Positions 5,268 to 42,398 of a stretch of 64,000 bases of DNA are shown here, piece after piece. Made by a program: the position numbers and the translations under genes. Origin of the DNA: Comamonadaceae bacterium ALPHA2B (GTDB lineage Bacteria > Pseudomonadota > Gammaproteobacteria > Burkholderiales > Burkholderiaceae_C); contig SCOE01000031.1 of assembly GCA_005503065.1 (NCBI GenBank), forward strand, positions 1-64,000, read 5' to 3'. Under the pieces are notes generated by a model that saw nothing but the letters and a program-made list of their open reading frames with translations, ran no database searches and was not told the DNA's origin. Within the stretch, counting starts at the first letter, position 1; every line of letters starts with the position of its first letter.

Positions 5268-6605
5268 TCAAGCCTGGCCGCTGGAAAGGGGACGCTGTGC
5301 CGCCGCGAGCCAGCCGCGGACCTCGCGCCCGGCCTCCTCGCGCGGCACCACGGCCTGCAGACGCGCCGGGGCGAAGCCGGCGGCCGCCAGCGCCGCGCGC
5401 ACGTGGCCGTCGGAATGGGTGTAGCGGCCGCTCAGCTCGAGGCGAAAGGGTGCCTCGTCCTGCTCGAGCGCCTCGACGGTGAAGACCAGCCAGCCGCCGG
5501 GGCGCAGCGCCTGCGCGGCGGCGCGCGCCGCGGCGTGCAGGTCGCCGAAATAGCACAGCGTGTCGGCCGACACCACCAGGTCGAAGGCCGCCGGCTGGGT
5601 GGCGAGGTAATGCACCAGCTCTGCCTGGTGCAGGCGGTCGTAGCCGCCGCGCCGCTTGGCCTGGCGCAGCATCCCGGCCGACAGGTCGCAGCCCGCCAGC
5701 AGCCGCGCCCAGGGCGCCAGCAGCGGCGCCATGAGGCCGGTGCCGCAACCCACGTCGGCCACGTCCAGCGCGCGGGCCGGCTCGCCGAGCGCGTCGTGCA
5801 CCGCGCGGGCCACCAGTGCCGGCGCCTGGTAGTTCAGGCGCTGCAGGCTGGCGTCGAAGCTTTCTGCGTACGCATCGAAGACGCGCGAGACGTACGCGTC
5901 GCTCGCACGCTCGGGCGCGCGTCCCTCGCAGGCGGCCAGCAGGTGCTGCGCCACCGGGTCTTCAGGCGATTCGGCCAGCCATTCGCGCAGCAGGCCGGCC
6001 GCACGTTCGCGCTCGCCGATCACCATGAGGGCGCGCAGGACCTGCGCGCGCCCGGAGGCTTCCTGCGGCAGCAGCGCGATGGCGCGGCTGTAGGCTTGCA
6101 CGGCCTCGGCCACCTCGCCCTGATCGGCCAGCAGGCGCGAGAGGATGTACCAGCCCGGCCCGTGCGCGGGCTGCAGCGCCAGCGCGCTGCGACAGGCCTG
6201 CACGGCCTCCTCGGGCCGGCCCAGCTTGCGCAGCAGCGCCGCCAGGTTCGCCCACCCGTTGGCGGCCTGGCCGGCGTTGGCCGCATGCGCGATCCCCTGG
6301 CGGTAGCTCGCCGCGGCCTCGTCGGCCTGGCCGGCCTCCACCAGCAGGTTGCCCAGGTTGTTCCAGGCCGCGCCATTGCGCGGCCGCAGCGACAGCGAAC
6401 GGCGCACCAGGCCGATGCCTTCGCCGGTGCGGCCCTGGCGGTGGCGCAGCACGCCATGGAAATGCAGCACGTCCGCGTCCCCCGGCTGCCGGCGCGACAG
6501 GGCGTCCAGCGCCGCATCGGCATCGTCCAGCTGACCGGCGCGCAGCCAGTCGATGGCCTGCGAGAGCGCGGCCGGGGCACGGGCCGTGGAGACCGGTGCG
6601 CTCAC
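5268..6605 (-). CDS. TPR-repeat SAM-dependent methyltransferase embedded in the T6SS operon
   Basis: This is a 445-residue fusion. Residues ~8-220 hold tandem TPR repeats (RNGAAWNNLGNLLVEAGQAD, GPGWYILSRLLADQGEVAEA). From about residue 245 there is a class I methyltransferase with motif I (VADVGCGTGLMAPLL, near residue 280), an acidic ribose-binding segment (LLAGCDLSAGMLRQA) and motif IV-like VVSADTLCYFGDL. The GTG start at 6605 overlaps the tssG stop as GTGA, and clpV starts 41 bp downstream, so it is co-translated within the operon. It is not a core T6SS gene. The substrate is unknown. TPRs could dock a secretion component or cargo, and a small-molecule substrate is equally possible. The domain assignment is firm; the T6SS role is inferred only from position. 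Confidence 0.85.
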   Translation of the reverse strand: MSAPVSTARAPAALSQAIDWLRAGQLDDADAALDALSRRQPGDADVLHFHGVLRHRQGRTGEGIGLVRRSLSLRPRNGAAWNNLGNLLVEAGQADEAAASYRQGIAHAANAGQAANGWANLAALLRKLGRPEEAVQACRSALALQPAHGPGWYILSRLLADQGEVAEAVQAYSRAIALLPQEASGRAQVLRALMVIGERERAAGLLREWLAESPEDPVAQHLLAACEGRAPERASDAYVSRVFDAYAESFDASLQRLNYQAPALVARAVHDALGEPARALDVADVGCGTGLMAPLLAPWARLLAGCDLSAGMLRQAKRRGGYDRLHQAELVHYLATQPAAFDLVVSADTLCYFGDLHAAARAAAQALRPGGWLVFTVEALEQDEAPFRLELSGRYTHSDGHVRAALAAAGFAPARLQAVVPREEAGREVRGWLAAAQRPLSSGQA

Positions 6606-9727: not shown

Positions 9728-10237
9728 TCAGCGCGCTGGATTGGACAGGTCATCGATGGCGATGCGCCCTTCCTCCAGGTCGACGCGGCTGCGCATCAGG
9801 AACTCCAGCGGCACCGGCTGCGCCCACAAGCTTCCGCGCACCAGCAGGCTGATGCAGTTGTGGGAATCCAGGGACGAGCCTTCCATGACGATTTCGACTT
9901 CGAGCGTTCGGGGCAGGATGCGCGGCTCGAACTGCAGGATGGCGTTCTTCAGAGCCTGTTCCATGCTGACACGCTGGATGGAGGACGTGAACTGGCCGGA
10001 CAGCATAGGCAATCCGTAGTTCAGCACCGAGCGCGCCGCCTGCGGATGGCGCTTCTCGTCGATCGCATCGCCCGTGGCATTGAGCAGCCAGGCCAAGTCG
10101 CGCAGCACCGCCTGGCGCAGCGCCTGCCGCGTGAGGGTGCGCTTGTCGTCGCCCTCGCGCTTCTGGTCGGGCGCGTGGTCGACCAGACGATCGAGCAGCG
10201 AGGGCTGCAGCCGCTCCTGGACGGTGAGCTCAGCCAT
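9728..10237 (-). CDS. tssE: TssE, gp25-like baseplate protein
   Basis: TssE is the gp25-like lysozyme-fold component that links baseplate and sheath. It has 169 residues starting MAELTVQERLQPSLLDRL, the classical TssE opening. It contains RDLAWLLNATG in the middle and SVLNYGLPMLSGQF, characteristic of the gp25/TssE family. The ATG at 10237 is preferred to earlier in-frame starts because it matches the family start; it overlaps the tagJ stop by 8 nt, consistent with translational coupling. Confidence 0.95.
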   Translation of the reverse strand: MAELTVQERLQPSLLDRLVDHAPDQKREGDDKRTLTRQALRQAVLRDLAWLLNATGDAIDEKRHPQAARSVLNYGLPMLSGQFTSSIQRVSMEQALKNAILQFEPRILPRTLEVEIVMEGSSLDSHNCISLLVRGSLWAQPVPLEFLMRSRVDLEEGRIAIDDLSNPAR

Positions 10238-11069
10238 GGTCTGCCGCAGTGCCGGCCGCATCGCCGTGCGCCGGGGCAGCGGCATCGAAATCGATCTGGC
10301 GCACATCCATCAGCGCATGCTCCCCCGCGTCGCTGCCCAGCAGGCGCTGGCCCAGCCCGCACCACACTTCGGGCGCGAGTTCGCGCCAGTCGGTGCGGCG
10401 CGCCAGCAGCAGCGCGCCGTCGTCGCTCTTCTCGGTGCCCTCGTAGCGCGTGGGCACCAGGGCCAGCGTCTCGCCGCCGTTCTCGAACAGCAGGTGCACC
10501 GGCATCCACACGCAGTCGCGCAGGTCCTCGGGCGGCTCGACCTTGACCTGCGCCAGGCGCGCGAAGGGCACCCAGTAGTAGCGGCCGTTGATGTAGGCCT
10601 CGAGCACCGGGCCGAGGCGCATGTCGGCATCGGCCAGCCACTCGAAGGGCGTGCCGTCGATGCGGCCGGCCGCCGCCGGCGCCTCGTCGAAGGCGCGCGC
10701 GCGCAGTTGCTCGGCCGCGGCCGCATCGCCGGCGCCGCGGCGCAGCAGCGACTCGACCAGCAGCGCCAGCCAGGGGTCGGGCTGGCCGAAGACCATGGGC
10801 GTGCGCTTGCCCGCGAAGACCTCGGCGCGCAGGCCCTCGCAGCGGATCGCCTCGCCGTAGACCTGCTTCATGGGCACGGCCAGGGCGTCGAGTTCGGCCG
10901 CGACGCTGAGCTGGTTGAGCGCACGCTCCCACTGGCCGAGCACGCACAGCAGCTGGGCCATGAAGACGCGCAGGCGGCTGTCGCCGGGCTTGGCGCGCAC
11001 CTCCTCGGTGAGGGCGCGGAGTGCGCCGGCAGGGTCGGCGCTGCGGATGAGTTCGGAGGCGGTGCTCAT
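10230..11069 (-). CDS. tagJ: TagJ/ImpE, T6SS accessory protein
   Basis: TagJ (ImpE family) binds TssB and modulates sheath recycling by ClpV in systems that carry it. The 279-residue protein has an N-terminal TPR-like helical part (residues 1-110, e.g. RVFMAQLLCVLGQWERALNQL) and the SciE/ImpE domain after it: DMRLGPVLEAYINGRYYWVPF, CVWMPVHLLFENGGE and a C-terminal QRLLGSDAGEHALMDVRQIDF. ATG 11069 follows a GGAG at about 8 nt. The Hcp-tagJ-tssE order is normal. Because TagJ acts through TssB, a tssB gene is expected elsewhere in the genome. Confidence 0.93.
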   Translation of the reverse strand: MSTASELIRSADPAGALRALTEEVRAKPGDSRLRVFMAQLLCVLGQWERALNQLSVAAELDALAVPMKQVYGEAIRCEGLRAEVFAGKRTPMVFGQPDPWLALLVESLLRRGAGDAAAAEQLRARAFDEAPAAAGRIDGTPFEWLADADMRLGPVLEAYINGRYYWVPFARLAQVKVEPPEDLRDCVWMPVHLLFENGGETLALVPTRYEGTEKSDDGALLLARRTDWRELAPEVWCGLGQRLLGSDAGEHALMDVRQIDFDAAAPAHGDAAGTAADHG

Positions 11070-11084: not shown

Positions 11085-11645
11085 TCAGGACATGCTGGCC
11101 ACGATGATCTGGCACTCGCGGGTGGCGCCGCGCGAGCCGGTGCCCTGCTGCGGCGCCGTCCTGATCTCGATCTTGCGGTAGCTGAAGACCAGGATCTCGT
11201 AGAGCATCACGTCGCCCGGCGCGGTGATGAAGTACTGGGCCGTGATCTGCGCCTCGTCGATCTTCAGCTCGAACATCGGCAGCGTGTCGGCCGTGACGCT
11301 GGCGTCGCCGCCGGCGAGGTACTTGCTGATGGTCGCCCGCAGGTTGGCGGCGCGGGTGTTGGTGAGCTGCGTGAGGATGGCGCTGGCCGAATCGGCCTGG
11401 CGCACCACGGTCAGCGGCGCATAGCTGCGCGGGCCCTGCGCCGCGCCGCCGATGGTGGCCGATGCCAGGCCCCAGCTCATGCCCACCATGTCAAGCCGCG
11501 GCTTGCCGTCGGGGTATCGCCGCACGTTGTCGCCCGTCACGGGCGTGCCGCTGTTCTCCATGGCCATCACGAGGTCGGCCCCCATCTGGTTGGTGTGCGC
11601 CAGCCGGGTGAGCTGCAGGAGGTTGTCGATGCTGTAGAGCGACAT
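11085..11645 (-). CDS. hcp (tssD): Hcp-like T6SS tube protein
   Basis: Hcp stacks as hexameric rings to form the expelled inner tube. The 186-residue protein is divergent at its N-terminus (MSLYSIDNLLQLTRLAHTNQ), but central and C-terminal parts fit the Hcp fold. These are VGMSWGLASA (compare the family's 'SWG' beta-strand), SYAPLTVVRQADSASAILTQ and the terminal YEILVFSYRKIEI strand preceding a short tail. An AAAGGA Shine-Dalgarno lies 8 nt before ATG 11645. Position directly upstream of tagJ-tssE supports the call. It is somewhat longer than typical Hcp (about 160-170 residues). Confidence 0.78.
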   Translation of the reverse strand: MSLYSIDNLLQLTRLAHTNQMGADLVMAMENSGTPVTGDNVRRYPDGKPRLDMVGMSWGLASATIGGAAQGPRSYAPLTVVRQADSASAILTQLTNTRAANLRATISKYLAGGDASVTADTLPMFELKIDEAQITAQYFITAPGDVMLYEILVFSYRKIEIRTAPQQGTGSRGATRECQIIVASMS

Positions 11646-13676: not shown

Positions 13677-14792
13677 CTAGGGTGAGCCCAGGGCCTCGAC
13701 CAGCGGCGAGGACTGCAGCACGCGCCGGCCTTCCTCAGGCTGCAGCAGGTGCAGCGACCAGGTGCCCGCGGCATCGGGGCCACCGACCACGGTGGCCCCG
13801 GCACTGCGCAGCAGCTGCGCGGCGGCGGCCATGTCGGTGCCGGCCTTCCAGCGCAGCGTGAAATCGACCTGCGGCGCGGCGGCCGCGGGCGGCGCGCCGC
13901 GAAAGCGCACCTCCTCGGCCTGCGGCAGCAGCAGGCCGGCGTTCTGCACCAGCACGACCAGCGCCAGCACGGCGAGCGCGGGGCGCCAGACGCCGTCGCC
14001 CAGCAGCCAGCCGCGCAGGCGCGTGCCCCAGCCCGCGGGCCGGCCCGGCGCTTCGACGCGCGGCATGCCGGCCGCGGGGCGCACGGCGCCGGTCGATGCG
14101 TTCGACAGGGCATTCAGCCGCGCGGCGGCCTCGGCGTACAGCGCCTGGTAGTCCGTGCGCGGATCGCCCTCGGGCGCGAGCGGCGTGCCCGACAGCACGG
14201 TGAAGGTGTCGGCCACGGTGCGCAGCGCGATGCGGCCGGGCTGCGCTGCGATGCCGGTCGCGGCCTTCGTCGCGCATTCGTCGGCCACGGCGCGCAAGGC
14301 GGCCAGGCGCGTCGCCGACACCTCGCCGAGCACGCGCGCGCACAACTGCGGCGCCGGCACCAGCGTGACGGGGTTCCAGGCCTGGACCATGCCGAAGAGC
14401 GGCTCGAAGGGTTCGTCGCCGGGCTCGAGCAGCACGTCGTGGGCACCCGCCCAATCGGCCTCGCTCGCGGCCATCCAGCCGTGCCAGCGCTCGCCCTCGG
14501 TATTCGTGTCGCAGCGGTCGAGCAGCACACCGAGCAGGCGCCCCTCGTGCAGCACGCTGACCAGGCGGCCCGGCGCCCAGCGCGCGGGAAAGGCCCGCGC
14601 CGCCACCGCTTCGCGGCGGCGCGCCAGTTCGGTCAGCGGCAGCAGCAGCTCTTCGAGGGGATGCCGGCCGCCCGGGCCCGCAATGCGAGGGTGCACGGGC
14701 GCCGTGGCGGCGGCGGCGCCGGCCGCGGCCGCCGCCGGCGGCCCGAAGGCGCTGCGGATCACGTTCAACGGCGGCCAGAGTTCGGTGGGCAT
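13677..14792 (-). CDS. Single-pass membrane protein, candidate anti-sigma factor
   Basis: I do not recognise this 371-residue protein from a named family. The N-terminal ~250 residues look cytoplasmic. One hydrophobic segment (ALAVLALVVLVQNAGLLL, around residue 260) is followed by an ~85-residue C-terminal domain ending LRSAGATVVGGPDAAGTWSL and HLLQPEEGRRVLQSSPLVEA. That C-terminal pattern resembles the extracytoplasmic tail of many ECF anti-sigma proteins. The gene starts 27 bp after the sigma-like gene stops and is followed at once by the caspase gene, the arrangement expected of sigma / anti-sigma pairs. No CHCC zinc motif is visible. The function is inferred from topology and order. Confidence 0.55.
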   Translation of the reverse strand: MPTELWPPLNVIRSAFGPPAAAAAGAAAATAPVHPRIAGPGGRHPLEELLLPLTELARRREAVAARAFPARWAPGRLVSVLHEGRLLGVLLDRCDTNTEGERWHGWMAASEADWAGAHDVLLEPGDEPFEPLFGMVQAWNPVTLVPAPQLCARVLGEVSATRLAALRAVADECATKAATGIAAQPGRIALRTVADTFTVLSGTPLAPEGDPRTDYQALYAEAAARLNALSNASTGAVRPAAGMPRVEAPGRPAGWGTRLRGWLLGDGVWRPALAVLALVVLVQNAGLLLPQAEEVRFRGAPPAAAAPQVDFTLRWKAGTDMAAAAQLLRSAGATVVGGPDAAGTWSLHLLQPEEGRRVLQSSPLVEALGSP

Positions 14793-14819
14793 GGCGTGTG
14801 TCCTGAAAGGGCTATGACT

Positions 14820-15584
14820 TCAGGCGTAAGACGCTTCAGCGCCGAGGATTTTGAAAACCAGCAGGATCGCGGCCCCGTTGTCGGGCCGGATGGCAATGCC
14901 CAGCGTGTCCTGGATCCAGCCGCCGATCTGCGTGCGCGCGTAGTCGGCCGGCAGGGCCTCGCGCTTGTGCACGAGCCCGAGCCGGCCCGCGCGGTAGTGG
15001 TACGAGGCAATGGCATGGCGCGCCGCCACGCCCGACAGCCCGCCGGCCGCCTCCTGGCCGAAGCCTTCGCACAGCAGCAGGCGCTCGGGCGGCGCCAGGC
15101 CGGCGATGAAGGCGCGCGCCGAAGCCTGCACGGCGGCAGCGCTCAGTCCGTGCTCGCGCAGGCAGTCCCCCGCGTCTTCCGCCGCGCCCAGCTGCGCCTC
15201 GAGCTGGTTCTCGCTGACTTCGTCGCCGATCGACAGCTTGCGCCGGAAGCTGCTGGCCCGCGTGCAGTCGATGAGGTAGCGGCGGAAGTACGCGCACAGC
15301 GCGAAGGCGCTCGACGGCGCGCTGTGGCCGCTGCGCTCGCGCGGATCGGGCTCCTCGCCCTCGTCGGCCTCGGCATCCAGCCGCAGCACCTTGACGTAGA
15401 TGAACTGCGCCACCAGTTCCTGGCGCCCCTCGCCCAGCGCATGCAGCTCGGGCGGGGTGCAGCCGCGCAGCGCGCCGCCCACGATGCCGTACATGCGCCC
15501 CATCTCGTCGGGCGACAGCGTCTGCCGGCGCCGCCACAGGCGGACCAGCTCGGCACTGTCTTCCGACGAGAGGGTGTCCTGCAT
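14820..15584 (-). CDS. Sigma-70-like (ECF-like) regulator
   Basis: This 254-residue soluble protein resembles an extracytoplasmic-function sigma factor. A helical region-2-like part (ELVAQFIYVKVLRLDAE, then FALCAYFRRYLIDCTRASSF) is separated by an acidic linker from a region-4-like helix-turn-helix (GLAPPERLLLCEGF, GLSGVAARHAIASYHYRAGR). The ATG at 15584 (MQDTLSSEDSAELVRLWRRR) is chosen; the frame extends upstream into a repeat. A T6SS-encoded sigma factor together with a Ser/Thr kinase recalls EcfK/PknS of Xanthomonas citri. The assignment rests on pattern reading and could be wrong if region 2 does not score as sigma. Confidence 0.55.
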   Translation of the reverse strand: MQDTLSSEDSAELVRLWRRRQTLSPDEMGRMYGIVGGALRGCTPPELHALGEGRQELVAQFIYVKVLRLDAEADEGEEPDPRERSGHSAPSSAFALCAYFRRYLIDCTRASSFRRKLSIGDEVSENQLEAQLGAAEDAGDCLREHGLSAAAVQASARAFIAGLAPPERLLLCEGFGQEAAGGLSGVAARHAIASYHYRAGRLGLVHKREALPADYARTQIGGWIQDTLGIAIRPDNGAAILLVFKILGAEASYA

Positions 15585-15631
15585 GGAACCGCCCGTCAGC
15601 GCTGGCGCGCGCAGGGCGCCGGCACGCAACT

Positions 15632-15695
15632 TTTCAATCGAAACGTGGCCGCAGCGCCCGCCCCGTCTGCGGAAGCAGCTATGCATTTGATAGCG
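15632..15695. repeat. Copy of the ~60-bp dispersed repeat
   Basis: This copy lies between mltA and the sigma-like gene. It contains the conserved blocks GGCCGCAGCGCCCGCC, GAAGCAGCTAT and TTTGATAGC, in the same layout as the copies at 27120 and 62741. No gene lies in the 165-bp spacer. Confidence 0.75.
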
Positions 15696-15749
15696 AACAG
15701 CGCGCAGGCGAAGCAGGAAGCGGCGAAGCCGCCTGGGGGGTGCATTCCT

Positions 15750-17348
15750 TCAGTCATCGGCGCAGTTCTGGTCGTCGGGCACCAGGCAGTTGGCGAGCGA
15801 ACCGCCGACGCCGCGGGTGCGCGTGCCGCCCGGGCCGCGCGCCACGGTGGCGGTGGCGGCGGCCACGGCCTGGCCGCGCGGCAGCAGGATCCACAGCTGG
15901 CCCCGCTCCTTCATGCGGCGCGCCTGGTTGGCGGCGAGCTGGCCGTTGCCGAAGAAGTAGTCGGCCCGCACCGCGCCGCGGATGGCGCCGCCCGTGTCCT
16001 GCGCGATGGTCAGGCGCTGCATCGGCGTGCCGGAGCCGGGCTGGCGCGTCGACACGAACACCGGGTAGCCCAGCGGCGTGCTGCGCGGGTCGACCGCGAT
16101 CGACCGACCGGGCTGCAGCGGCACGCCCATCGCGCCCACGGGGCCGGCGGTGCTGGTCTGCACTTCCTTGAAGAAGACGTAGCTCGGGTCCTTGATGCCC
16201 GATCCCGTGACCGGGCCCGACGCGCGCTGCCCCGGCACCACCACCGCGCCGCTGGCCACCGGCCGCGCGAGGGTGAAGCCGCGGGTACGCACGGCGCCGA
16301 TGTCGCCCACGTCGTCGTCATCATCCACTTCCAGCTCGATGGTGTTGCCCCGCGTGCGCACCGCGCTCTTGCCGCGACCGCCCGGCGCCTGCGCCAGCGT
16401 GGGCCGGAAGGGCTGGCCGTTCTGCTCCGCATAGCCGATGCGGATCACCTCGCCGTTGGGCAGGCGGATGCGGCCGGAGCCCTGGATCTGCATCTCGTAC
16501 AGCGCGGTGGCGCTGCTCACGAAGGCCAGCACCTTGGCATTCGGTGCACCGCGGGTTTCGATCTCCTCGCGCGTGTAGTAGGGCAGCAGGCGCTGGCCGT
16601 CGATGCGCACGCGGGCCTTGCGGTCGATGGTGTCGCGCACGATCTGCGACAGGTCCAGCGCATAGAGTCCGGGGGCGCCCATGTCGCGCGTCGACAGCCC
16701 CGTCTGCACCACCACCTGGTTGCCCTGCACGCGTGCCGCCACCGTGCCGTTGCCGGGGGGCAGCCGCCGGGTGTCGAGGAAGAGCATGTCCTGCGGTTGG
16801 CCATACACCGGGTAGATGAAGGGCGGTGCGTAGCTGCGGCTGCCCTCGATCTCGGGTTCGAAGTAGCCCGTCACCACGCCGTCGGGGCGGCGGTCGTCGT
16901 CGCGGATCTGGTAGGCCGCGAATTCGCGTTCGAAGAAGGAGCGGATCGCGGGATTGCTCTTGCCGTCCACGCTGCTCGCACGGCCGCACACCTCCTGCCA
17001 CTGCGCGCCGCGCCCGTTGAGCACGCGGCAGCTGGTAAGGAAGGCCGGCCAGCTCTCGGCGAAGTCGTCGCGGCTCCAACCGGGGACGCTGTCGAAGTTG
17101 ACGGCCGTGTAGGTGGCGATCTGGGTCGAGAAGGTGCGCGCCTGGCCGGCCACGCTGGCGTTGGCCGGTGCGGGTGCAGGGGCCGGCGCGGGTGCCGGCG
17201 CGACGGCCACCGGTGCCGGCGGCGGCGCGGCAGGCGCAGGGGCCGGTGCGGGCGCGGTGGCGCAGCCGGCCAGGCCCAGCGCCAGGGCGCCGGCCCACAG
17301 CGCATGCACCGGTCGCGGTGCCTGGTGGGGATGCGGGGCTGGGTTCAT
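15750..17348 (-). CDS. mltA-like: MltA-type lipoprotein lytic transglycosylase within the T6SS locus
   Basis: This is a predicted outer-membrane-anchored lytic transglycosylase that cleaves the glycan MurNAc-GlcNAc bond. It has 532 residues. A lipobox (LALGLAGCAT, Cys about residue 29) is followed by an Ala-Pro-rich linker (residues 30-63). MltA domain signatures are VVTGYFEPEIEGSRSY and YEMQIQGSGRIRLPNGEVIR; the 3D/barrel part is SIAVDPRSTPLGYPVFV with IAQDTGGAIRGAVRADYFFG, which holds the catalytic Asp. It also carries a polar insert with a run of Asp (VDDDDDVGD). Between the T6SS kinase and the sigma-like gene, it probably opens peptidoglycan for apparatus assembly, as MltE does for enteroaggregative E. 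coli. It could instead be ordinary housekeeping MltA. Confidence 0.92.
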   Translation of the reverse strand: MNPAPHPHQAPRPVHALWAGALALGLAGCATAPAPAPAPAAPPPAPVAVAPAPAPAPAPAPANASVAGQARTFSTQIATYTAVNFDSVPGWSRDDFAESWPAFLTSCRVLNGRGAQWQEVCGRASSVDGKSNPAIRSFFEREFAAYQIRDDDRRPDGVVTGYFEPEIEGSRSYAPPFIYPVYGQPQDMLFLDTRRLPPGNGTVAARVQGNQVVVQTGLSTRDMGAPGLYALDLSQIVRDTIDRKARVRIDGQRLLPYYTREEIETRGAPNAKVLAFVSSATALYEMQIQGSGRIRLPNGEVIRIGYAEQNGQPFRPTLAQAPGGRGKSAVRTRGNTIELEVDDDDDVGDIGAVRTRGFTLARPVASGAVVVPGQRASGPVTGSGIKDPSYVFFKEVQTSTAGPVGAMGVPLQPGRSIAVDPRSTPLGYPVFVSTRQPGSGTPMQRLTIAQDTGGAIRGAVRADYFFGNGQLAANQARRMKERGQLWILLPRGQAVAAATATVARGPGGTRTRGVGGSLANCLVPDDQNCADD

Positions 17349-17400
17349 GATTCACTCCTTGGGATCGAAGCGGCCCGGACGGGCCGATGTCCACAGACGA

Positions 17401-19260
17401 TCACTTCTCGACGATTTTGAAAGTGCCGACGCCGTAGACGTCCTGGCAGCCGCCGCCCGAAGGGCACACCGGCCTGCCCAGCAGCGGTGTCGGCCCGCCC
17501 GCGCGGGCGGCCTCGAGGGCCGACAGCACCGTGAGCGGGAACTGCGGGAACACGCCGTCGTTCTGCACGCCGGATTCGCTGAAGTCCCGCTCGTTCTGGC
17601 TCACGAGCACCGCGAAGTGGTTGGTGCCCGGTGGCCCGCCGGCATTCATGGGCCAGGAGGCACGCGGCAGCGACAGCGTGCCGCCCGCGCTGATCTTGTT
17701 GTACTTGTCGAGCAGGTTGGGGAAGAGCAGGAACATCTCGCCGCCGCTGGACAGCAGGTAGACGTAGACGTAGCCGTCGCGCTGGCTGCGCACCTCGAAG
17801 TCCAGCTTGTCGCGGCCCACCGCGACCTCGGCCTTGCGCGGCGTCGCGCTCACGCCGAAGCCGGCGGTCGCGCCGGCGCCCAGTGCTTCGAGCGACTGCA
17901 GCGGCGTGCGGCGCACGGCGGGTGCCGGCGGCGGCGCAAGAGGCGGCGGTGGCTCGGGCGCCGCCGAAGGCGCCGGGGCCGCGACCGGCGGTGGTGGTGC
18001 GCTCGCCACCACGGTGTCGGCCTTCCGGCCCTGCATCCACCACCAGGTGCCGCCCGCGATCACCGCCAGGGCCAGCACGCCGCCGGCAGCCACCCGCTTC
18101 GCGCTGCCGCCGGCGCCGGGCACCGGTGCCGGCACGGGCTGCGGCGTGGCCTTCGCGCCCCGCGCAGCCGCCGGTGCCGCGCTGCTGCGCGCGCCGCTGG
18201 AGCGCAGCGGCGCGATGGTGGTCGTCTCTTCCAGGCCCAGCTCGGCGCGCAGCTCGCCCATGGACTGCGGACGCGCCTCGGGCCGCACCTGCAGCCCGTG
18301 GTCGATGGTCTCCAGCAGACGCAGGCTGTAGCGCTGGCGCAGCACCTCGTTGCCGGCCAGCGGCACGTAGCTGTCGGAGATCAGCCGCGCCACCGAGGGC
18401 GGCGGCGCACGGCCGCACACGGCCACGTGCATGACGGCCGCGAGCGCGTAGACATCGGTCCACGCGCCCTGCGACATGTCGGGCATCTCGGCGTACTGTT
18501 CCACCGGCGCGTAGCCGGGCTTGAGGATGACGGTGATGGCCTGCGTCTTGTCGGTGATGACGCGACGCGCCGCGCCGAAGTCCAGCACCACCGGTCGGCC
18601 CGTGCCCTCGAGCAGCATGATGTTGTCGGGCGCGATGTCGCGGTGGTAGCAGTTGGCGTTGTGCATCACCGCCAGCGCCTGCGTGACGCCGTCCATGACG
18701 CGCATGAGCCAGCCCTCGTCCACCGCGGGCATGGCCGCCAGGGCCTGGCGCATGGTCTGGCCGCGGTACAGCGGCATCACCATGTAGGTGGTGCCGCGCT
18801 CCTGCCAGAAGCGGTAGACCTTCAGCAGCGAGGGATGGTCGAACTGCGCCAGCAGCCGCGCCTCGTTGATGAAGCTGCGCATGCCGAGGTCGAAGGTCTC
18901 CTTGTGCTTTTCCGACAGCGGCGAGACGGTGCCGTCCTGCGCGCGCGTGGAGAGCGAGGTCGGCAGGTACTCCTTGATCGCGACCGTGCGCTCGAGCGTG
19001 TGGTCCCAGGCCTCGTACACGGCGCCGAAGCCGCCCTGGCCGATCAGGTGCGTGATCTCGAACTCCGCCATGCGGCTGCCGGCCGGCAGGGTGCCGGTCT
19101 CCGCGCCGCCGCCCGCGGCGGGCGGCGGGGCCGGCGGCATCGCGCCGGGCGACGAGATCACCGTGGCCGCATCGGCCTCGCGCGACGGGCCGCGGCCGGT
19201 CATGACCTGGGTGCGGTCGTCGCCGCCTTCGGGCGGCAGGGGTGCGGATGGGGTGCTCAC
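17401..19260 (-). CDS. Membrane Ser/Thr protein kinase of the T6SS locus (PpkA/PknS-like)
   Basis: This is a transmembrane eukaryotic-type kinase, 619 residues. The glycine loop is IGQGGFGAVYE (72-82), the ATP Lys is K96 in VAIKEYL, the catalytic loop is HRDIAPDN (206-213) and the DFG triplet is at 227-229, so all key residues are present. A Pro/Ala linker precedes one membrane helix (VLALAVIAGGTWWW, ~395-408). The exported C-terminal domain (GYVYVYLLSSGGEMFLLFPN, NHFAVLVSQNERDF) looks like DUF4384 rather than PASTA or VWA. ATG 19260 overlaps the tagF stop as ATGA. PpkA regulates T6SS firing via Fha in Pseudomonas; no fha gene is seen here, so a sigma-factor target (as with PknS) is an attractive alternative. 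Confidence 0.93.
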   Translation of the reverse strand: MSTPSAPLPPEGGDDRTQVMTGRGPSREADAATVISSPGAMPPAPPPAAGGGAETGTLPAGSRMAEFEITHLIGQGGFGAVYEAWDHTLERTVAIKEYLPTSLSTRAQDGTVSPLSEKHKETFDLGMRSFINEARLLAQFDHPSLLKVYRFWQERGTTYMVMPLYRGQTMRQALAAMPAVDEGWLMRVMDGVTQALAVMHNANCYHRDIAPDNIMLLEGTGRPVVLDFGAARRVITDKTQAITVILKPGYAPVEQYAEMPDMSQGAWTDVYALAAVMHVAVCGRAPPPSVARLISDSYVPLAGNEVLRQRYSLRLLETIDHGLQVRPEARPQSMGELRAELGLEETTTIAPLRSSGARSSAAPAAARGAKATPQPVPAPVPGAGGSAKRVAAGGVLALAVIAGGTWWWMQGRKADTVVASAPPPPVAAPAPSAAPEPPPPLAPPPAPAVRRTPLQSLEALGAGATAGFGVSATPRKAEVAVGRDKLDFEVRSQRDGYVYVYLLSSGGEMFLLFPNLLDKYNKISAGGTLSLPRASWPMNAGGPPGTNHFAVLVSQNERDFSESGVQNDGVFPQFPLTVLSALEAARAGGPTPLLGRPVCPSGGGCQDVYGVGTFKIVEK

Positions 19261-19937
19261 GTCGGGTCCACCTTGTCCGCCTCGCGGGCGTCGGACGGTC
19301 CGGCGGCTTCACGGGCCGGGGCGAAGAGCAGGTCGAAGCGCTCGTCGCGCGGCAGGCCGGCGCTCAGCAGGCGCTGGCCCTCGCCGCACGGGTGCGTGAG
19401 CCACAGCGACTGGCCGCCGGCGGGCCAGGCGGGCGGCGTGCCGAGCTCGTCCTGCGCGACCGGGGTGTCCGCGGCGCCGGCGAACAGGCGTGCCAGGGTG
19501 CCATCGAAGCGCGCCGCGTCCTGGTCCTGGTCCAGGCCTTCGAGCGCCGCCTGCGCCGCGCGCTGCCACCACCGGTGCAGGGCCGGCCATGCGGCCGCGG
19601 GCAGGGAGGGCCAGGGCTGGCGCAGCTCGCAGGCCACGGCGAAGGGAAAGTAGCGGCCGACGCCGTCGACCGACGGCATGACGACGCCCACCCAGCACGA
19701 GGGGCCCGCCACGTCCTGCGCCAGCGCGAAGAACCACACCGGACCCTCGAGGTAGCGCGCGGTCCAGTCCTCGTGGCGCAGCCGCAGTTGCATCATCCCG
19801 TGCTGCAGCCACTGGTCCCAGCGCGCGCGAAAGACCTCCGGCAGCCGGCGATGCGCGAAATCGCCCATGCCGGGCAGCTTGCCGAACCAGCCCGGCAGGG
19901 CAACCGGGTCCGAGAGGATGCCGTCCAAGCCCCTCAC
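19257..19937 (-). CDS. tagF: TagF, T6SS-associated protein
   Basis: TagF is a cytoplasmic post-translational repressor or modulator of T6SS assembly. It has 226 residues. The family opening is VALPGWFGKLPGMGDFAHRR, followed by FFALAQDVAGPSCWVGVVMP and DGVGRYFPFAVACEL, which are diagnostic. The GTG at 19937 overlaps the tssM TGA as GTGA, and its own stop overlaps the kinase start as ATGA, so tssM-tagF-kinase are tightly coupled. The downstream kinase and TagF are often functionally linked. There is no fused PppA phosphatase domain and no separate phosphatase gene in the window. Confidence 0.94.
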   Translation of the reverse strand: MRGLDGILSDPVALPGWFGKLPGMGDFAHRRLPEVFRARWDQWLQHGMMQLRLRHEDWTARYLEGPVWFFALAQDVAGPSCWVGVVMPSVDGVGRYFPFAVACELRQPWPSLPAAAWPALHRWWQRAAQAALEGLDQDQDAARFDGTLARLFAGAADTPVAQDELGTPPAWPAGGQSLWLTHPCGEGQRLLSAGLPRDERFDLLFAPAREAAGPSDAREADKVDPT

Positions 19938-22900
19938 AAGCCCTCCGGGCAGGAGAACTCGCGCAACTCCTTCAGGCGGATCGGGTGCTGCACGCTGTTG
20001 GTCGTCACCTCGAACTTGGCGCGGCGCGCGTCGAGCTGGAAGGTGATGAGGAACTTCTCCGGTCCCTCGCCCGAGGCGAGCTGACCGCGGTCGAGCATCT
20101 TGAACAGTGCCCACGGCCCCTCGGTGACCTGGCCCGAGGTGCCGCCCGCGGTCGGCGGTTGCACGGTGATGCGCACCTGGTTGGTGTTGCGCGGCCCGGG
20201 CCACTGCACGGTCATCGGCACGATGGGGCCATGCGCGTACTTCACGAGCTGGCCGTCGACGTCGAGCGTGAACTGGGTGATGCCGGCATCGAGTTCGACC
20301 GGCTTGAAGTCCAGGCGCATCGCGGGACCGCGGCCACCGCCGCGGAAGAACACCTGCTTGATCAGGTCGGCGCGCTCGAACTGCTGCAGCGCCGAAGTCG
20401 AGATCGCGCCCTGCTCCGCCACCGGCTTGTAGCGCCACGGGCGGCGGCTGGTGTCCACCAGCTGCGCGAGGCGCTTCTGGAAGAAGTCGTCCATCATCCC
20501 CCCCGGCCCGAACATCTGGCCGAAATCCTCGGGCAGCACGTCGCGGCTGCTCGATTCGACGAAGGGATAGCGGCCCGTGATGGCGCGCTGGCAGAACTCG
20601 GTGACGGGCCGCAGGTCCTGGCTCAGGTTGCCGCGCTCGGCCACGCGGGCCTGCGCGGCGCCGCTGGTGCTGAGGTTCTCGACCATCGAGCGCACCGGCT
20701 CGGGCAGGCGGCCCGCATCGGACTTGAGCTTGCCAGCCACATCGCCCGGCGGCGGCGAGCTGCGGCTCTTGACGGCCGTGTCCACGGCCGTGAGGTAGAC
20801 GTAGACCTCGTTGAAGAGCTTCAGCGCATCGTCCAGGGGCGCGGGGCCGCCGGGCGTGGGCGACACCACCAGGCGGCGCAGCGATTCGAAGCGGTCGTCG
20901 ACGATGCTCTCGATGCGCTTGCCCGGAGCGAGCTGCTGCCGGTTCGCGTCGCCGCCGCCGAAGAGCTCTTCCAGGCCCTTGCGGGTGTTGCGCACGGTCT
21001 CCGCCGCCTTGCCGACGGCCGACTTGTCGCCGTCTTTGGGCGTGAGCGTGGTCTCCTTGACCACCGCGCGCAGGAAGTTGGCCAGCGGCGAATCGGCACC
21101 CGAGAGGATGCGCGCGATCTCGATGTTCTTCTCGAGGCCGGACACGCGGATCAGCCGCACGTCGGCGAGCATCGCCTCCCACACCTTCACGTATTCCTGC
21201 AGGTACAGGCGCCGCACGCGGTCGGTGAGATCGCCCAGCGCCGCCGCGTCGCGCAGGCGGTCGGCCGCGCCGGTGCCCTGCCCGAGCACCCACGGGTCCT
21301 CGGCGGCGATGAGCCCGGTGACTACGACCACCTCGTTCTGGAAGCGCCTGTGGTAGCCGTCGTAGGTGAACATGCCCGGAACGCCCTCGGTCAGCGGCTT
21401 GCCGCTGGGCCGCTCGAACACCAGCGGGCCCGACGGACCGGTGGCGGCGGCGATGCTGAAGTTGGGCACGTCCTTGCCCAGGCGCTGGCGCTTCAAGCGG
21501 CTGAAGATGCGCTGCTCGGTCGGGTAGCTGGCCAGCAATGCGCGAACGCTGCGCACCAGGTTCTCGTCCATCTTCAGCGGCGCGCGCGGCGGGCCCTGCG
21601 CGATGAGGATGTCGAGCTGGTCCTCCAGCAGCTTGCGCTGGTCCTCGGGAATGCCGCGGTCGAGGCTGCGCGCCCAGTCGAGCGTGATCCAGGCCTTCAG
21701 TGCCTCGGCGTCGAAGTGCTCGGGCTGGTGGATCATGAGGTAGCTCTTGAGCGCCTCGTAGGTGAACTCCAGGTTGTCCTTCTGCGCGGTGCGCAGCTGG
21801 TCCTCGATGCGCTTGGCCAGCTGCGGCAGGAAGGCCTCGTTGAGCGCGCGCTGGTGCGCGGTCTGCGCCGCGGCGTCGAGCTTGTCCCCCTGGTACAGGC
21901 CCAGCGTCATCGAGAAGGGCTCGTTGCCCTCGCGGTTGAGCGGCGTCTTCCAGATGTCGCGCAGGCCCTGCAGCACGGGCGCCACCTGCACCAGGTTCTG
22001 CGTCTGCGCCGGCAGCCCGGCGAGCTGCTGGCGCGCGGGTTCGACCCGCGCCTCCACCGACTTCACGTACGCGAGGTTCTGCCAGGCGCTCCAACCCCAG
22101 CCGGCGAGCAGGCCGACGGTCACCAGCAGCATGGCCGTCATGCCGGCCAGGCGCAGCGCATGGCGGCGCCGCTCCAGCTTCACGTCGGCACCGGCCAGGC
22201 GCTGCTCGGGGAACACCACGTCCTTGAGCAGCGTGGTGAGGAAGTAGCTGCGGCCGCTGCTCTTCTGCGGCGCGAGGATGGCGCGCTCGAGCCCGAAGCT
22301 GCGCGCCAGGCTTCCCATCACGCGATCGATCGGGCTGCCCTCCTGCGTGCCGCTGGTGAAGTACACCCCACGCACCCACGGCGGCTGCGCGAAGCGCGAG
22401 CCGGTGAAGACCTGGTCGAGCAGGTCCTGCAGCATGGGCCCGATGGACGCGAACTGTGCCGGAAAGCCGAAGATGGCCGCACGGCGCGTGCCGTCGGTCT
22501 CCTGCTGCATGCGCTCCAGCAGGCCGCCGTTGACGCGGTCGTGCAGCAGCGCGAACTCGCGCTGGAAGGGCGCGTTCAGGCCGTGCTCGGCCAGGTGCGT
22601 GCCCTCCTCAGGCGGCAGCGTGAAACCGAAGACCTGCGCACGCTGCTCCTTGCCCAGGTCGGCGAAGTAGTCCGTGAAGCCATAGAGCAGGTCGCTCTTG
22701 GTCACGAGCACATAGACCGGCAGGCGCGTGGTGAGGCGCTCGTCCAGCTCCAGCAGGCGCGCTCGGATCGAGGCGGCAAGCGCGCTGCGCGCCTCCACGC
22801 CCTGGCTCAGCAGGTCGGCCACGCTGACGGTGAGGAACACGCCGTTGAGCGGCCGGCGCGGGCGCGCCTTCTTGAGCAGGCCCAGGAAGCCGTCCCAGGC

Positions 22901-27119: not shown

Positions 27120-27181
27120 TTCAAGCCAAAAGGGCCTGCAACGCCCGCCCCGCTTGCGCGAGCAGCTACGTTTTCGATAGC
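27120..27181. repeat. Copy of the ~60-bp dispersed repeat
   Basis: It lies between tssK and the downstream PhnD-like gene. Recognisable blocks are TTCAAGCCAAA, GCCTGCAACGCCCGCC, GCGCGAGCAGCTA and TTCGATAGC. Its right end includes the last codons of the PhnD-like gene, whose C-terminus (LLSKT) is encoded by repeat sequence. Confidence 0.8.
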
Positions 27182-28227
27182 AGGTCGCTCTGCTCGAGCC
27201 AACGCACCTGCCGCGCGTGCTCGGCCTCCAGCCGTGCCAGCCGGGTGCGGCGGGCCTCCTCGCTCACCCACTGGCCGGCCAGCGCCCGCTGGCGGGCCAA
27301 CTGGTGCTCCAGCCGGGCCACCGGCAGCAGCGCGCTGTTGTCGGCCACCCGCCAGCCACGGTCGGCATGCAGCGAGCGCAGCACGGCGCGCTGGGCCTCG
27401 CCGCGCGGGCCGGGCTCGCGGCCATAGGCGGCCAGGAAGCCCCGCACGCGCTGCTGCAGCTCGCGCGGCCAGTCCGCGCGCACCACGATCTGCGCCGGCG
27501 GCGTGGGCTCCGACTGCCAGATGACCTGCAGCCGCGCCGCTTCGACGGGGAACTGCTGCCGAAAGCGCTCCAGGTCGGTGGTGTTGTTCGTCGCCACGTC
27601 GGCATCGCCGTTGGCCACCGCGAGCGCCGTCTCCTGGTGCGTGCCGATCACCTCGCCCACGAAGCGGGTCTCGATCTCGATGCCATGGGGCAGGAAGAGC
27701 TGGGCCTGCGGCACGATGTAGCCCGACACCGAGCGGCTGTCGCCGCGGGCAATGCGCCAGCGCTCCGGCGCGGCCAGCAGTGCGGCGAGCGAGTTGAACG
27801 GCGGGGCCTTGCGCGCCAGCAGCACGGCGCGGTGCGCGGCGGCCCGGCCCTCGACCCGCTCCACCTCGGCCACCACGCGCATGCGCTGCTCGAGCACCGC
27901 GTCCAGCGCCAGCTTGCCCGAAAGGAAAGCCAGGTCGACCTGGTTGTGGGCGATCGCGCGCTCCAGCGATTCGTAGCTCGGGACCGAGACCGAGGCCACC
28001 GGGCGCCCCACGGTGCGGCCCATGTCCTCGAGGACGGGCTCCCAGTTGCGCCGCGACTCGAAGGCGCCGCCCATGGGCAGCACGCCGAAGCGCAGCGCGG
28101 GCGAAGGCAGCTCGGCGAGGCGGCCCTGGGCGCCGGCGGGCGAGCCGGCGAAACAGGCCGCCGCGGCACTCCAGCCCAGGAACGTGCGGCGCGGAAGGCC
28201 GGCGATCGGGACTGCAGCGGCGCGCAT
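27166..28227 (-). CDS. PhnD-like periplasmic binding protein (second of a tandem pair)
   Basis: This is a phosphate/phosphite/phosphonate-type substrate-binding protein (PhnD family), 353 residues. The N-terminus has a Tat-like signal (RRTFLGWSAAAACFAG) and the mature part starts LRFGVLPMGGAFESRRNWEP. Two-lobe features follow: VDLAFLSGKLALD, GDSRSVSGYIVPQAQLFLP, ALAVANGDADVATNNTTDLE and IVVRADWPRELQQ. It is clearly paralogous to the upstream gene at 28227-29300, and ATG 28227 shares one base with that gene's stop (TGATG). No permease or ATPase gene is nearby, so a sensory rather than transport role with the divergent hybrid kinase is likely. The ligand is unknown. Confidence 0.85.
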   Translation of the reverse strand: MRAAAVPIAGLPRRTFLGWSAAAACFAGSPAGAQGRLAELPSPALRFGVLPMGGAFESRRNWEPVLEDMGRTVGRPVASVSVPSYESLERAIAHNQVDLAFLSGKLALDAVLEQRMRVVAEVERVEGRAAAHRAVLLARKAPPFNSLAALLAAPERWRIARGDSRSVSGYIVPQAQLFLPHGIEIETRFVGEVIGTHQETALAVANGDADVATNNTTDLERFRQQFPVEAARLQVIWQSEPTPPAQIVVRADWPRELQQRVRGFLAAYGREPGPRGEAQRAVLRSLHADRGWRVADNSALLPVARLEHQLARQRALAGQWVSEEARRTRLARLEAEHARQVRWLEQSDLLSKT

Positions 28228-29300
28228 CACGGCGGGCTGTCGCGCAACGCGGCCAGTTGATCCGCGTAGGTGGCTTCGATGCGCTGAAGGCGCGCCTGGC
28301 GCGCCGCCTCGTTGACGAACTGGCCCGTCAGCGCGTTCTGCCGCGCGAGTTGATAGGCCAGCTTGGCGGCCGGCACCAGCGAGGTGTTGTCTGCCGGCAG
28401 GAAACCGGCGAGGTCGTGAAGCGACTTGAGCACCGCGCGCTCGGCGTCGCCCTTGGACCCCTTGGCCTTGGCGTACCCCGTCAGGAAGCCCTGCACGCGC
28501 TGCTGGAATTCCGGCGGGTAGTCGCGCCGCACGACGATCTGCGCGTGCGGGATCAGCTCCGACTCCCAGATCACCTGCAGGCGCGCCGCCTCGGCCGGGA
28601 ACTGCAGCTTGAAGCGCTCGAAGTCGGCGGTGTTGTTGGTGGCGACGTCGGCCTCGCCGTTGGCCACCGCCAGCGCGGTCATCTGGTGGGTGCCGACCAC
28701 CTCGCTGCGAAAGCGCGTCTCCATGACGATGCGGTTGGGCAGGAAAAGCTGCAACTGCGGCACGATGAAGCCCGACACCGAGCGCGACTCGCCGCGCGCC
28801 AGGCGCCAGCGGTCGGGGTCGCCCAGCACCGCGTCGAGCGAGGCGATCGGGCCGCCCTTGCGCGCCAGCAGCAGCGCCCTGTAGCCGGGCAGGCCGTCGT
28901 GCCGCGTGACCTGGGCCACCACCTTCATCTGGCGCAGGGTGACGGCGTCCAGCGCCATCTTTCCCGAGAGGAAGGCCATGTCGACCTCGTTGCGCTGGAT
29001 GGCCTGCTCCAGCGCGTCGTAGGAGGTGACGGAGAGCACCGCCACGGGCCGGCCGATCGCCTTGCTGAGGTCGGCCAGCAGCGGGTCCCAGTCGTTGCGC
29101 GACTCGAAGGCGCCGCCCAGCGGCAGAATGCCGAAGCGCACCGGCATGCCCGCCGTCTGGGCCGCCGCCGCCAGCGGCAGGGCCAGCGCCAGCACCGCGA
29201 GCGCGCAGCGCCAGAGCATCGGCCACCGCTGCAGCCAGCGGGCCGCGGTCGGGGCCTGCGGAAGGACGGTCGGCGGGTGGAGAGCGGCGTGACGGCGCAT
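28227..29300 (-). CDS. PhnD-like periplasmic binding protein (first of a tandem pair)
   Basis: This protein has 357 residues with a Sec signal (MLWRCALAVLALALPLAAAA). The mature part shares blocks with its neighbour: VRFGILPLGGAFESRNDWDP, VDMAFLSGKMALDAV, GESRSVSGFIVPQLQLFLPN, ALAVANGEADVATNNTADFE and IVVRRDYPPEFQQRVQGFLT. It begins only 107 bp from the divergent hybrid histidine kinase, so the three genes probably share a control region. The pair looks like a tandem duplication with one-base overlap. Absence of ABC transporter partners suggests it supplies a signal to a periplasmic sensor domain; this is inference. Confidence 0.85.
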   Translation of the reverse strand: MRRHAALHPPTVLPQAPTAARWLQRWPMLWRCALAVLALALPLAAAAQTAGMPVRFGILPLGGAFESRNDWDPLLADLSKAIGRPVAVLSVTSYDALEQAIQRNEVDMAFLSGKMALDAVTLRQMKVVAQVTRHDGLPGYRALLLARKGGPIASLDAVLGDPDRWRLARGESRSVSGFIVPQLQLFLPNRIVMETRFRSEVVGTHQMTALAVANGEADVATNNTADFERFKLQFPAEAARLQVIWESELIPHAQIVVRRDYPPEFQQRVQGFLTGYAKAKGSKGDAERAVLKSLHDLAGFLPADNTSLVPAAKLAYQLARQNALTGQFVNEAARQARLQRIEATYADQLAALRDSPP

Positions 29301-31360: not shown

Positions 31361-31410
31361 CGGCGTCACAGCCTTCCGGGCAACTCTTCGCGAATCCCCG
31401 CGCAGGGCAT

Positions 31411-31433
31411 CGCTAGGCCATCCGGCATAGGCC
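31411..31433 (+). promoter_or_regulatory. Direct-repeat motif upstream of the second binding-protein/kinase operon
   Basis: CGC then TAGGCC, 8 bases, TAGGCC: a perfect direct repeat of the hexamer with a 14-bp period. It is in the same orientation relative to the downstream gene as the sites before tssK and the CHAT operon. It lies about 175 bp before the ATG at 31608. The rest of the 247-bp spacer shows nothing recognisable. Confidence 0.5.
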
Positions 31434-31607
31434 GCGCGGGCGTCGCCATGCAGCCGCCCGCGGTCCGGCAGGCCGCGCCGGCGGCGGCCTAAGCCCTCTG
31501 CGTTATCGCGCTGCGGCACGCCGCTCCGTACATTGGTGCGCAAGGACCCGCTGTCGGCGCCCGCGCCGCCGGCCGGTCTTCCTGTCCGCATCCGTCCCAC
31601 CGCATCC

Positions 31608-32648
31608 ATGCGCTTCCCGCTCACGTCCGCGCCCCGCGGGGCGCCGCCGCAACCCTGGCGGCCCGTCGCCGCCGTGCTGATGGCCGCGCTGCTCGCCGCC
31701 GCGCCGGCCCTGCCCGCGCGCGCGGCTGGCTGGACCGTGCTCACCGCCGACGATGCGCCGGCGCACGCCGAGTTCGTGCGCGAGCTGCAAGGGGGTGCCG
31801 AGGGCGGACCGCGCATCGAGTGGGTCCGCATCGCGCCGGGCGCCGATGCTCCCGCCGCGGCGCCGGAGGCCCTCGCGCAGGCCGACGAGGACCGTGTGAC
31901 GGCCGGCGTGCGCACCCGCGGCATCCGCCGCAGCGCGCCGGCCAGCGATGGCGTGATCGTGGCCGTGGGCCCCGCCGCGGCCCGACTCGCGCTGGACCGC
32001 CCCGGCCAGGAGCCGCTGCTGCTGGCGATGCTCAGCCGGCTGGATTACGAAGGCCTCAAGCCGCTGCCCGCGCTGCGCCGCAGCGAACGTCCGATCGGCG
32101 TGCTGCTGCGCGAGCCCGCGATGGGCGACCAGTTGGCGCTGATCGACGCGGTGCTGCCGGGCAGGCGCCGGCTGGGCCTGGTGGTGACGGGCGAGTCCGA
32201 ACCGGTGCTGCGCGAGCTCCAGCGCGTCGCACAGGACTGGCAACTGCAGGTCGAGTACGCGCCCGATGCGCGCTCGCTCGGTGCCGCGCTGCGGGCCGTG
32301 GTGCCGCGCAGCGACGCGATCATCGTGCTGCCCGACCTGATCGGCGAGAGCCAGGCCGCGACGCTGGCCGTGCTGCGCGCGGGGGCCGGCGCCGGGCTGC
32401 CGGTGTTCGGCAGCAACGAAGGCATGGTGCGCTCGGGCGGGCTGGCCGCCGCGGTGTCCACGCCTGCGCAGCTCGCCCACCAGGCCCGCACGATGGGCAC
32501 GCGCCTGGCCGGCGGCGGCGCGGCGGCGCCCATGGTCGAGAGTGCCACGCCCGCCAGCGTGCGCGTGAACGCCACCGTCGCCCGCGGCCTGAACCTGCGG
32601 CTGCCGCCCGAACAGGACCTGGCCCAGCGCGTCACCGCCCCACGATGA
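31608..32648 (+). CDS. ABC-type substrate-binding-like protein coupled to a hybrid kinase
   Basis: This exported binding-protein-like gene product has 346 residues from ATG 31608. A signal peptide (VAAVLMAALLAAAPALPARA) is followed by a two-lobe fold of the 'ABC_sub_bind' type: GVIVAVGPAAARLAL, RPIGVLLREPAMGDQLALI, RLGLVVTGESEPVL, DAIIVLPDLIGESQAATLAV, LPVFGSNEGMVRSGGLAAAV and VRVNATVARGLNLRLP. An upstream TTG in frame (31533) is less likely because it would bury the signal peptide. Its stop overlaps the kinase start as ATGA. There are no transporter genes. It is the likely periplasmic signal receptor of that kinase, comparable in logic to TorT/TorS. Confidence 0.8.
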   Translation: MRFPLTSAPRGAPPQPWRPVAAVLMAALLAAAPALPARAAGWTVLTADDAPAHAEFVRELQGGAEGGPRIEWVRIAPGADAPAAAPEALAQADEDRVTAGVRTRGIRRSAPASDGVIVAVGPAAARLALDRPGQEPLLLAMLSRLDYEGLKPLPALRRSERPIGVLLREPAMGDQLALIDAVLPGRRRLGLVVTGESEPVLRELQRVAQDWQLQVEYAPDARSLGAALRAVVPRSDAIIVLPDLIGESQAATLAVLRAGAGAGLPVFGSNEGMVRSGGLAAAVSTPAQLAHQARTMGTRLAGGGAAAPMVESATPASVRVNATVARGLNLRLPPEQDLAQRVTAPR

Positions 32649-42283: not shown

Positions 42284-42320
42284 GTCGATGCCCCTGCACG
42301 CCCGTGCCCGGACGCTCTTT

Positions 42321-42386
42321 GTGCTATCAATTCAATAGCTGCACGCACTTGCTGGACGGGCGCTGCAGCCACTTTTTTCTCAAAAG
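42321..42386. repeat. Copy of the dispersed repeat between tpsA and tpsB
   Basis: GTGCTATCAATTCAATAGCT, then GACGGGCGCTGCAGCC and TTTTTTCTCAAAAG. The copy fills the 115-bp spacer between the TpsB stop and TpsA start. The short terminal palindrome TTTT..AAAA could act as a weak attenuator. Confidence 0.75.
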
Positions 42387-42398
42387 TGCGGGCCATGC

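Follow-up and report, generated by a model that had tools for sequence, protein, structure and literature searches.

Direct phosphorylation of a sigma factor by a kinase is a known case in a type VI secretion system (T6SS), and the kinase PknS possesses a periplasmic TPR region (PMC13147305). In the extracytoplasmic function (ECF) sigma-factor group ECF43 (EcfP/EcfK), the DAED motif is replaced and region 2.2 contains a phosphorylatable Thr (PMC8999054). In a CRISPR system, the caspase-family protein Csx29 cleaves Csx30, which inhibits an ECF-like sigma factor (PMC10028731), and this pair is, by analogy, the nearest tested precedent for a caspase-family protease cutting a sigma-factor inhibitor. 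Operons of metacaspase and sigma-70 genes were noted in 2012 in Myxococcus, Anaeromyxobacter, Haliangium, Sorangium, Ralstonia and Fibrobacter (PMC3501461); the proximity of caspase and sigma-factor genes was thus already known. Here we analyze a T6SS locus in a 64,000-nucleotide stretch (the window; contig SCOE01000031.1) of Comamonadaceae bacterium ALPHA2B, in which a caspase gene follows genes for a sigma-like protein and a membrane protein.

The block comprises five genes, all on the minus strand, in the order kinase, MltA lipoprotein, SIG (our name for the 254-aa sigma-like protein), TM371 (the 371-aa single-pass membrane protein) and C14 caspase (Table 1). Open reading frames and domain matches bear out the five genes and the order given by an earlier sequence-only reading. 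That reading had included the caspase in a block at 13677..19260; the caspase gene is real, but it lies outside this interval, 3 bp downstream.

We read SIG, TM371 and the caspase as a module captured by a T6SS. It is plausible, at what we judge to be about an even chance, that they form a sigma, membrane anti-sigma-like and exported-protease module that controls, or is expressed together with, the surrounding T6SS. This reading draws on the conservation of the block (53/63 loci), the anti-sigma homology of TM371, the sigma-factor complexes at ranks 1–16 of a structural search with SIG, and sigma/anti-sigma/caspase operons in 5/10 regions elsewhere. It draws further on the decay of the transmembrane (TM) and periplasmic part of TM371 in a clade without the caspase, on an R-x-R motif in 54/56 TM371 proteins, and on the Csx29/Csx30 precedent. 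The sequence-only reading had proposed a sensing circuit analogous to PknS/EcfK; the conserved block, the sigma-like fold and the anti-sigma half speak for such a circuit, whereas the PknS/EcfK parallel is loose and the caspase is absent from 3/63 loci.

Conservation and distribution of the block

A scan of named genomes returned 190 stretches and 117 relatives, the best 80 of which were analyzed. These 80 comprise 63 comamonad-type loci (Variovorax, Xenophilus, Pseudacidovorax, Rhodoferax, Polaromonas and unclassified assemblies) and 17 Paraburkholderia/Burkholderia loci, and the counts take in near-copies, such as L020 and L021. All five genes are present in 53 of the 63 comamonad loci. Among the remaining ten, six are on contigs that end in TM371 or no more than 100 bp from it, one is on a contig that starts at SIG and includes the caspase, and the remaining three (L078–L080; two Rhodoferax, one Polaromonas) run on without a caspase. 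The genes are closely spaced in the comamonad loci, with median intergenic gaps of 28 bp between SIG and TM371 and 14.5 bp between TM371 and the caspase. The conservation of the block is far above chance. At least one Tss, Tag, Hcp2 or VgrG match is found in 58/63 comamonad loci, and the other five are on contigs ending in TM371 or no more than 100 bp from it; the block is thus conserved beside tss genes in related genomes, one of the two points on which the sequence-only reading had staked its refutation.

SIG is present in 8/200 genomes of the family, and in seven of these eight it lies within a T6SS locus with TM371 directly after it; the caspase accompanies the pair in five of the seven and is absent from two (G064, G027). 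A class-wide search gave just 2/369 genomes, the window's own among them, so the SIG family is rare. Neither TM371 nor a caspase of the window type was found in any of the 17 Paraburkholderia-type SIG loci (L081–L097), and a hybrid histidine kinase related to that at window 29408-31360 is near SIG in 15 of the 17. In one of these (L092), the SIG locus adjoins a T6SS in which a PP2C-like phosphatase (by eye) and the beginning of a kinase gene are present.

SIG, TM371 and the caspase

Structural comparison, rather than sequence, relates SIG to sigma factors. Pfam and NCBIfam searches with SIG gave no match, sigma Pfams including Sigma70_r2 and Sigma70_r4 matched 0/29 SIG relatives at E values up to 1, and neither a PDB sequence search with SIG nor a profile comparison with 12 ECF sigmas yielded more than marginal support. 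In the structural search, sigma-factor complexes fill ranks 1–16, and the model of SIG (predicted local distance difference test score (pLDDT) 76.2, predicted template-modeling score (pTM) 0.49) shows a sigma-2 and a sigma-4 fold, in that order. On this structural support, SIG is probably a divergent sigma-factor-like protein; the sigma-like identity proposed from the sequence is upheld by the fold matches but not by sequence profiles.

TM371 has no Pfam match, and PDB sequence searches with the whole protein and with each half found no relative. In profile comparison, its C-terminal half, including the TM helix and the periplasmic domain, matches anti-sigma factors with E values down to 1.5e-12 over positions ~222–345. 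The genes of 18/19 fetched anti-sigma factors directly follow an ECF sigma gene (12 of these ECF sigmas went into building the profile), and the gene after such anti-sigma genes encodes an S8 protease in 10/10 tested. The anti-sigma-like tail previously ascribed to the 371-aa protein is supported by the homology of its TM/periplasmic half to ECF anti-sigma factors. In the cytoplasmic half, zf-HC2 and anti-sigma N-terminal Pfams matched none of 23 TM371 members, and the predicted fold is MazF-like. PF02452 (MazF/PemK) matches 0/23 TM371 relatives, and the MazF Thr that we take to be catalytic aligns to Ala in TM371 and to Gly or Ser in relatives, so this Thr has apparently been lost. We set aside an active MazF RNase for this reason.

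Peptidase_C14 matches 17/17 caspase relatives, and the N terminus of the caspase has a signal-peptide-like stretch (by eye). The catalytic pair is intact, as noticed earlier: H114/C180, counted from the 662-aa start, are the His113/Cys179 counted from the next Met, and both residues are kept in 54/54 caspases of named loci. A role as T6SS effector was set aside in view of the signal-peptide-like start and the sigma genes beside caspase relatives.

Caspases also accompany sigma factors outside T6SS loci. A caspase profile search matched 26/399 genomes of the order. In five of ten fetched non-T6SS caspase regions (L194, L195, L196, L198, L199), the caspase gene is grouped with an ECF sigma gene and a gene for an anti-sigma-like single-TM protein, with sigma Pfams confirming L194, L196 and L198 and zf-HC2 above cut-off in L198; no sigma or anti-sigma neighbors were seen in the other five (L192, L193, L197, L200, L201). 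The TM371 profile at 1e-4 matches 0/5 of the middle proteins, which are thus related to TM371 only through gene arrangement and inspection by eye.

In the SIG tree, whose output flags long branches that meet, the three T6SS loci without a caspase group as one clade (support 98/97). Because a caspase is present in G054, which is more distant, a single caspase loss is the simplest reading. In this clade, the N-terminal half of TM371, SIG and the kinase are retained, and the C-terminal half of TM371 is degraded, with a weak TM helix in L078 (hydropathy 1.28), no TM helix in L080, and neither TM helix nor C domain in L079.

The juxtamembrane linker of TM371, just outside the membrane, contains R[FLY]R in 54/56 caspase-linked TM371 proteins, the other two having VLFR. 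Orthocaspases cut after positively charged residues (PMC6426788). R-x-R is found in 0/10 S8-linked anti-sigmas and in 0/5 caspase-linked anti-sigma-like proteins outside T6SS loci, so it marks the T6SS version of TM371, in which it is a candidate cut site only. A looser motif, a hydrophobic residue plus Arg/Lys, barely separates the two groups, occurring within 20 residues in 4/10 S8-linked and 5/5 caspase-linked proteins outside T6SS loci, and within 30 residues in 8/10 and 5/5, respectively.

DUF4384, the periplasmic domain of the kinase, matches the caspase relatives weakly (7/17, best 0.0012), and a stretch of one caspase-like protein from Polaromonas (L160) is 42.7% identical to the DUF4384 region of the kinase. 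DUF4384 has been noted alongside kinase domains and also within a clade of caspase homologues (PMC6426788). Given a DUF4384 that is clear in the kinase, weak in the caspase and kinase-like in the Polaromonas protein, kinase and caspase may possibly respond to a common envelope cue. Three caspase-like proteins are encoded in the Polaromonas cluster (L160 3267-13611), along with a CHAT-like protein and, by eye, a CHASE2-like membrane protein.

Proposed mechanism and alternatives

An exported caspase cleaving TM371 is our best reading of the genomic logic, the cut itself being a proposal. In the resting state, the cytoplasmic MazF-fold domain of TM371 would hold SIG at the membrane. An envelope cue, possibly received by kinase and caspase through their DUF4384 regions, would activate the periplasmic caspase, and the conserved juxtamembrane Arg (V-R-F-R) would be the residue after which it cuts TM371. 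SIG could then be freed for T6SS transcription by ordinary intramembrane proteolysis, while the kinase, part of a neighboring T6SS unit, may provide a second input through phospho-control at a site other than the EcfP-type one. We put forward tentatively, as possible though short of probable, the complete picture, namely that a MazF-fold domain was turned into a membrane-anchored anti-sigma factor whose anchor is cut by a periplasmic caspase, switching on the T6SS. If true, a prokaryotic caspase gains a concrete candidate substrate and cut site, such caspases are linked to the control of a weapon and not to cell death, the MazF-like fold joins the ways of holding sigma factors inactive as a new kind of anti-sigma domain, and caspase-triggered transmembrane signaling controls a bacterial weapon. 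Since sigma/anti-sigma operons recur with either an S8 protease or a caspase, the idea can be tested in many bacteria.

The caspase could instead be an output, with SIG driving an exported-protease operon and the prodomain-like periplasmic domain of TM371 sensing or restraining the protease. An exported protease follows the anti-sigma gene in all ten tested ECF operons, as a regulon member would, and the C domain shared by the ECF anti-sigma factors is subtilase-prodomain-like, 2/10 passing the Fervidolysin prodomain cut-off. Prodomains inhibit proteases. However, a subtilase-type prodomain would not be expected to restrain a caspase, which belongs to a different protease family. The decay of the TM/periplasmic part after caspase loss is compatible with the caspase as trigger and as output alike, and overall we consider an output role rather unlikely.

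We regard as unlikely a PknS/EcfK-like circuit, in which the kinase phosphorylates SIG directly and TM371 and the caspase are accessories. Such a circuit has the published phosphorylation of a T6SS sigma factor as precedent (PMC13147305), and it agrees with the position of the kinase and MltA genes upstream of SIG in 61/63 comamonad loci and in 3/3 caspase-less loci. The kinase is likewise found in 61/63 loci (in L041 and L050 as a reading in pieces), the other two contigs beginning too late. Yet the sensor domain of the kinase differs, being DUF4384 and not TPR, and the position aligned to the EcfP-type Thr, by our own placement of the motif, reads GRQE in the window and SRQE, DKEE or DRED among relatives, with no Thr. 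In G054, moreover, TssK-TssL-TssM-TagF-kinase-MltA are together on one strand and TssA-TssB-TssC-Hcp (by eye)-SIG-TM371-caspase-Hcp2-TagJ-TssE-TssF-TssG-TssH are on the opposite strand, the kinase being ~21 kb from SIG; kinase-MltA and SIG-TM371-caspase are therefore two separable units. Nor was such a kinase gene seen beside the SIG-TM371 pairs outside T6SS loci (two in G158, one in G819). The analogy to PknS/EcfK drawn in the sequence-only reading is thus a loose one. One of the G158 pairs adjoins a different, divergent caspase gene (by eye), and the gene after non-T6SS SIG-TM371 pairs (L129 3054-4700 and the end of L017) has a zinc-ribbon-like pair of CxxC motifs near its start (by eye).

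A toxin-like module, in which the MazF-fold protein and the caspase act on the cell itself or on a neighbor, killing or arresting it, when the T6SS is attacked or misfires, would suit the MazF-like fold and the frequent discussion of prokaryotic caspases together with cell death (PMC3501461), but is very improbable given the non-conserved catalytic Thr, the absence of PF02452 matches, the membrane anchor of TM371, the signal-peptide-like start of the caspase and the sigma genes adjoining its relatives.

Locus layout and comparison with known systems

Upstream of the block are TagF, TssM (named from position and size), TssL and TssK; downstream are an Hcp-like protein, TagJ, TssE, TssF, TssG, a TPR-methyltransferase, TssH and VgrG. 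The TagF_N match starts at residue 87 of the tagF reading, the MltA/3D protein has a lipobox-like LAGC (by eye), and another contig carries a gene closely related to the sheath gene tssC.

Table 1. Coordinates of the block, its parts and flanking genes in the window
Feature	Position	Strand	Support
Membrane Ser/Thr kinase, C-terminal (periplasmic) DUF4384, 619 aa	17401..19260	-	Pkinase 6.1e-27, DUF4384 3e-15
MltA/3D-domain lipoprotein, probable lytic transglycosylase, 532 aa	15750..17348	-	MltA 4.6e-30, 3D 1e-20
SIG, divergent sigma-factor-like protein, 254 aa	14820..15584	-	Structural matches; without Pfam match
TM371 (371 aa): predicted cytoplasmic MazF-fold domain, TM helix, small periplasmic domain	13677..14792	-	Models and homology
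TM371 TM helix, ~residues 270-289 (DSSP helix 270-288)	13926..13985	-	Hydropathy 2.19, model; coordinates from residue numbers
TM371 juxtamembrane EEVRFR, residues 292-297, candidate caspase cut site	13902..13919	-	R[FLYVIM]R at this site in 54/56 caspase-linked TM371 proteins; coordinates from residue numbers
TM371 periplasmic beta-alpha-beta-beta-alpha-beta domain, residues ~311-371	13677..13862	-	Model pLDDT ~96 there
Exported C14 caspase, weak DUF4384-like C region, 662 aa	11685..13673	-	Peptidase_C14 3.9e-9
Hcp-like protein, next after caspase	11085..11645	-	T6SS_HCP 0.00075, under family cut-off
TagJ/ImpE	10230..11069	-	ImpE 9.1e-44
TagF gene, 4-bp overlap with kinase gene	19257..20150	-	TagF_N 3.4e-38

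The TPR-methyltransferase gene (5268-6605), between tssG and tssH, has counterparts in several related loci. A tandem pair of phosphonate-type periplasmic binding proteins (27166-29300) is encoded upstream of the tss genes; at 29408-34639, an ABC-type substrate-binding protein is flanked by two hybrid histidine kinases. Near the T6SS, 36749-46123 encodes a TPS-domain exoprotein, a ShlB-type transporter and a TPR-CHAT protein, CHAT being another caspase-family protease; relatives occur both in the G054 T6SS locus (L161, L015) and in that of a Paraburkholderia metagenome-assembled genome (L092).

Judged by titles and the starts of abstracts, no relevant report was found that links a caspase, metacaspase or peptidase C14 to type VI secretion, or MazF to an anti-sigma or ECF sigma factor, and for an ECF anti-sigma factor with a caspase-like protease only PMC10028731 was found. 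As far as the literature searched shows, a caspase-sigma module inside a T6SS is new; of the novelty claimed earlier for a caspase as T6SS regulator or effector, the T6SS setting stands and the proximity to a sigma factor was already known.

In common with PknS/EcfK of the Xanthomonas citri T6SS (ECF43), the locus has a membrane Ser/Thr kinase and a sigma-like gene within a T6SS locus; it differs in a periplasmic DUF4384 in place of TPR, a SIG with neither a sigma Pfam match nor a Thr at the EcfP-type site, and the additional TM371 and caspase. With the metacaspase/sigma-70 operons it shares a caspase gene and a sigma gene in one operon, whereas section 13 of PMC3501461, where these are treated, names no T6SS and no anti-sigma factor. 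The cytoplasmic domain of TM371 has the predicted fold of the MazF/Kid family, but TM371 is membrane-anchored, apparently lacks the catalytic Thr and has no sequence-family match. In the operons of an ECF sigma, an anti-sigma factor and an exported S8 protease, the gene order and the TM helix and periplasmic domain of the middle protein are the same, with SIG here in place of the ECF sigma, the MazF-fold domain in place of zf-HC2 and the caspase in place of S8. Craspase/CASP (Csx29 TPR-CHAT, Csx30, CASP-sigma) likewise ties a caspase-family protease genetically to a sigma factor and its inhibitor; that system is RNA-triggered and CRISPR-linked, whereas here the protease is a C14 caspase that begins with a signal-peptide-like stretch, its partner is a transmembrane protein and the setting is a T6SS locus.

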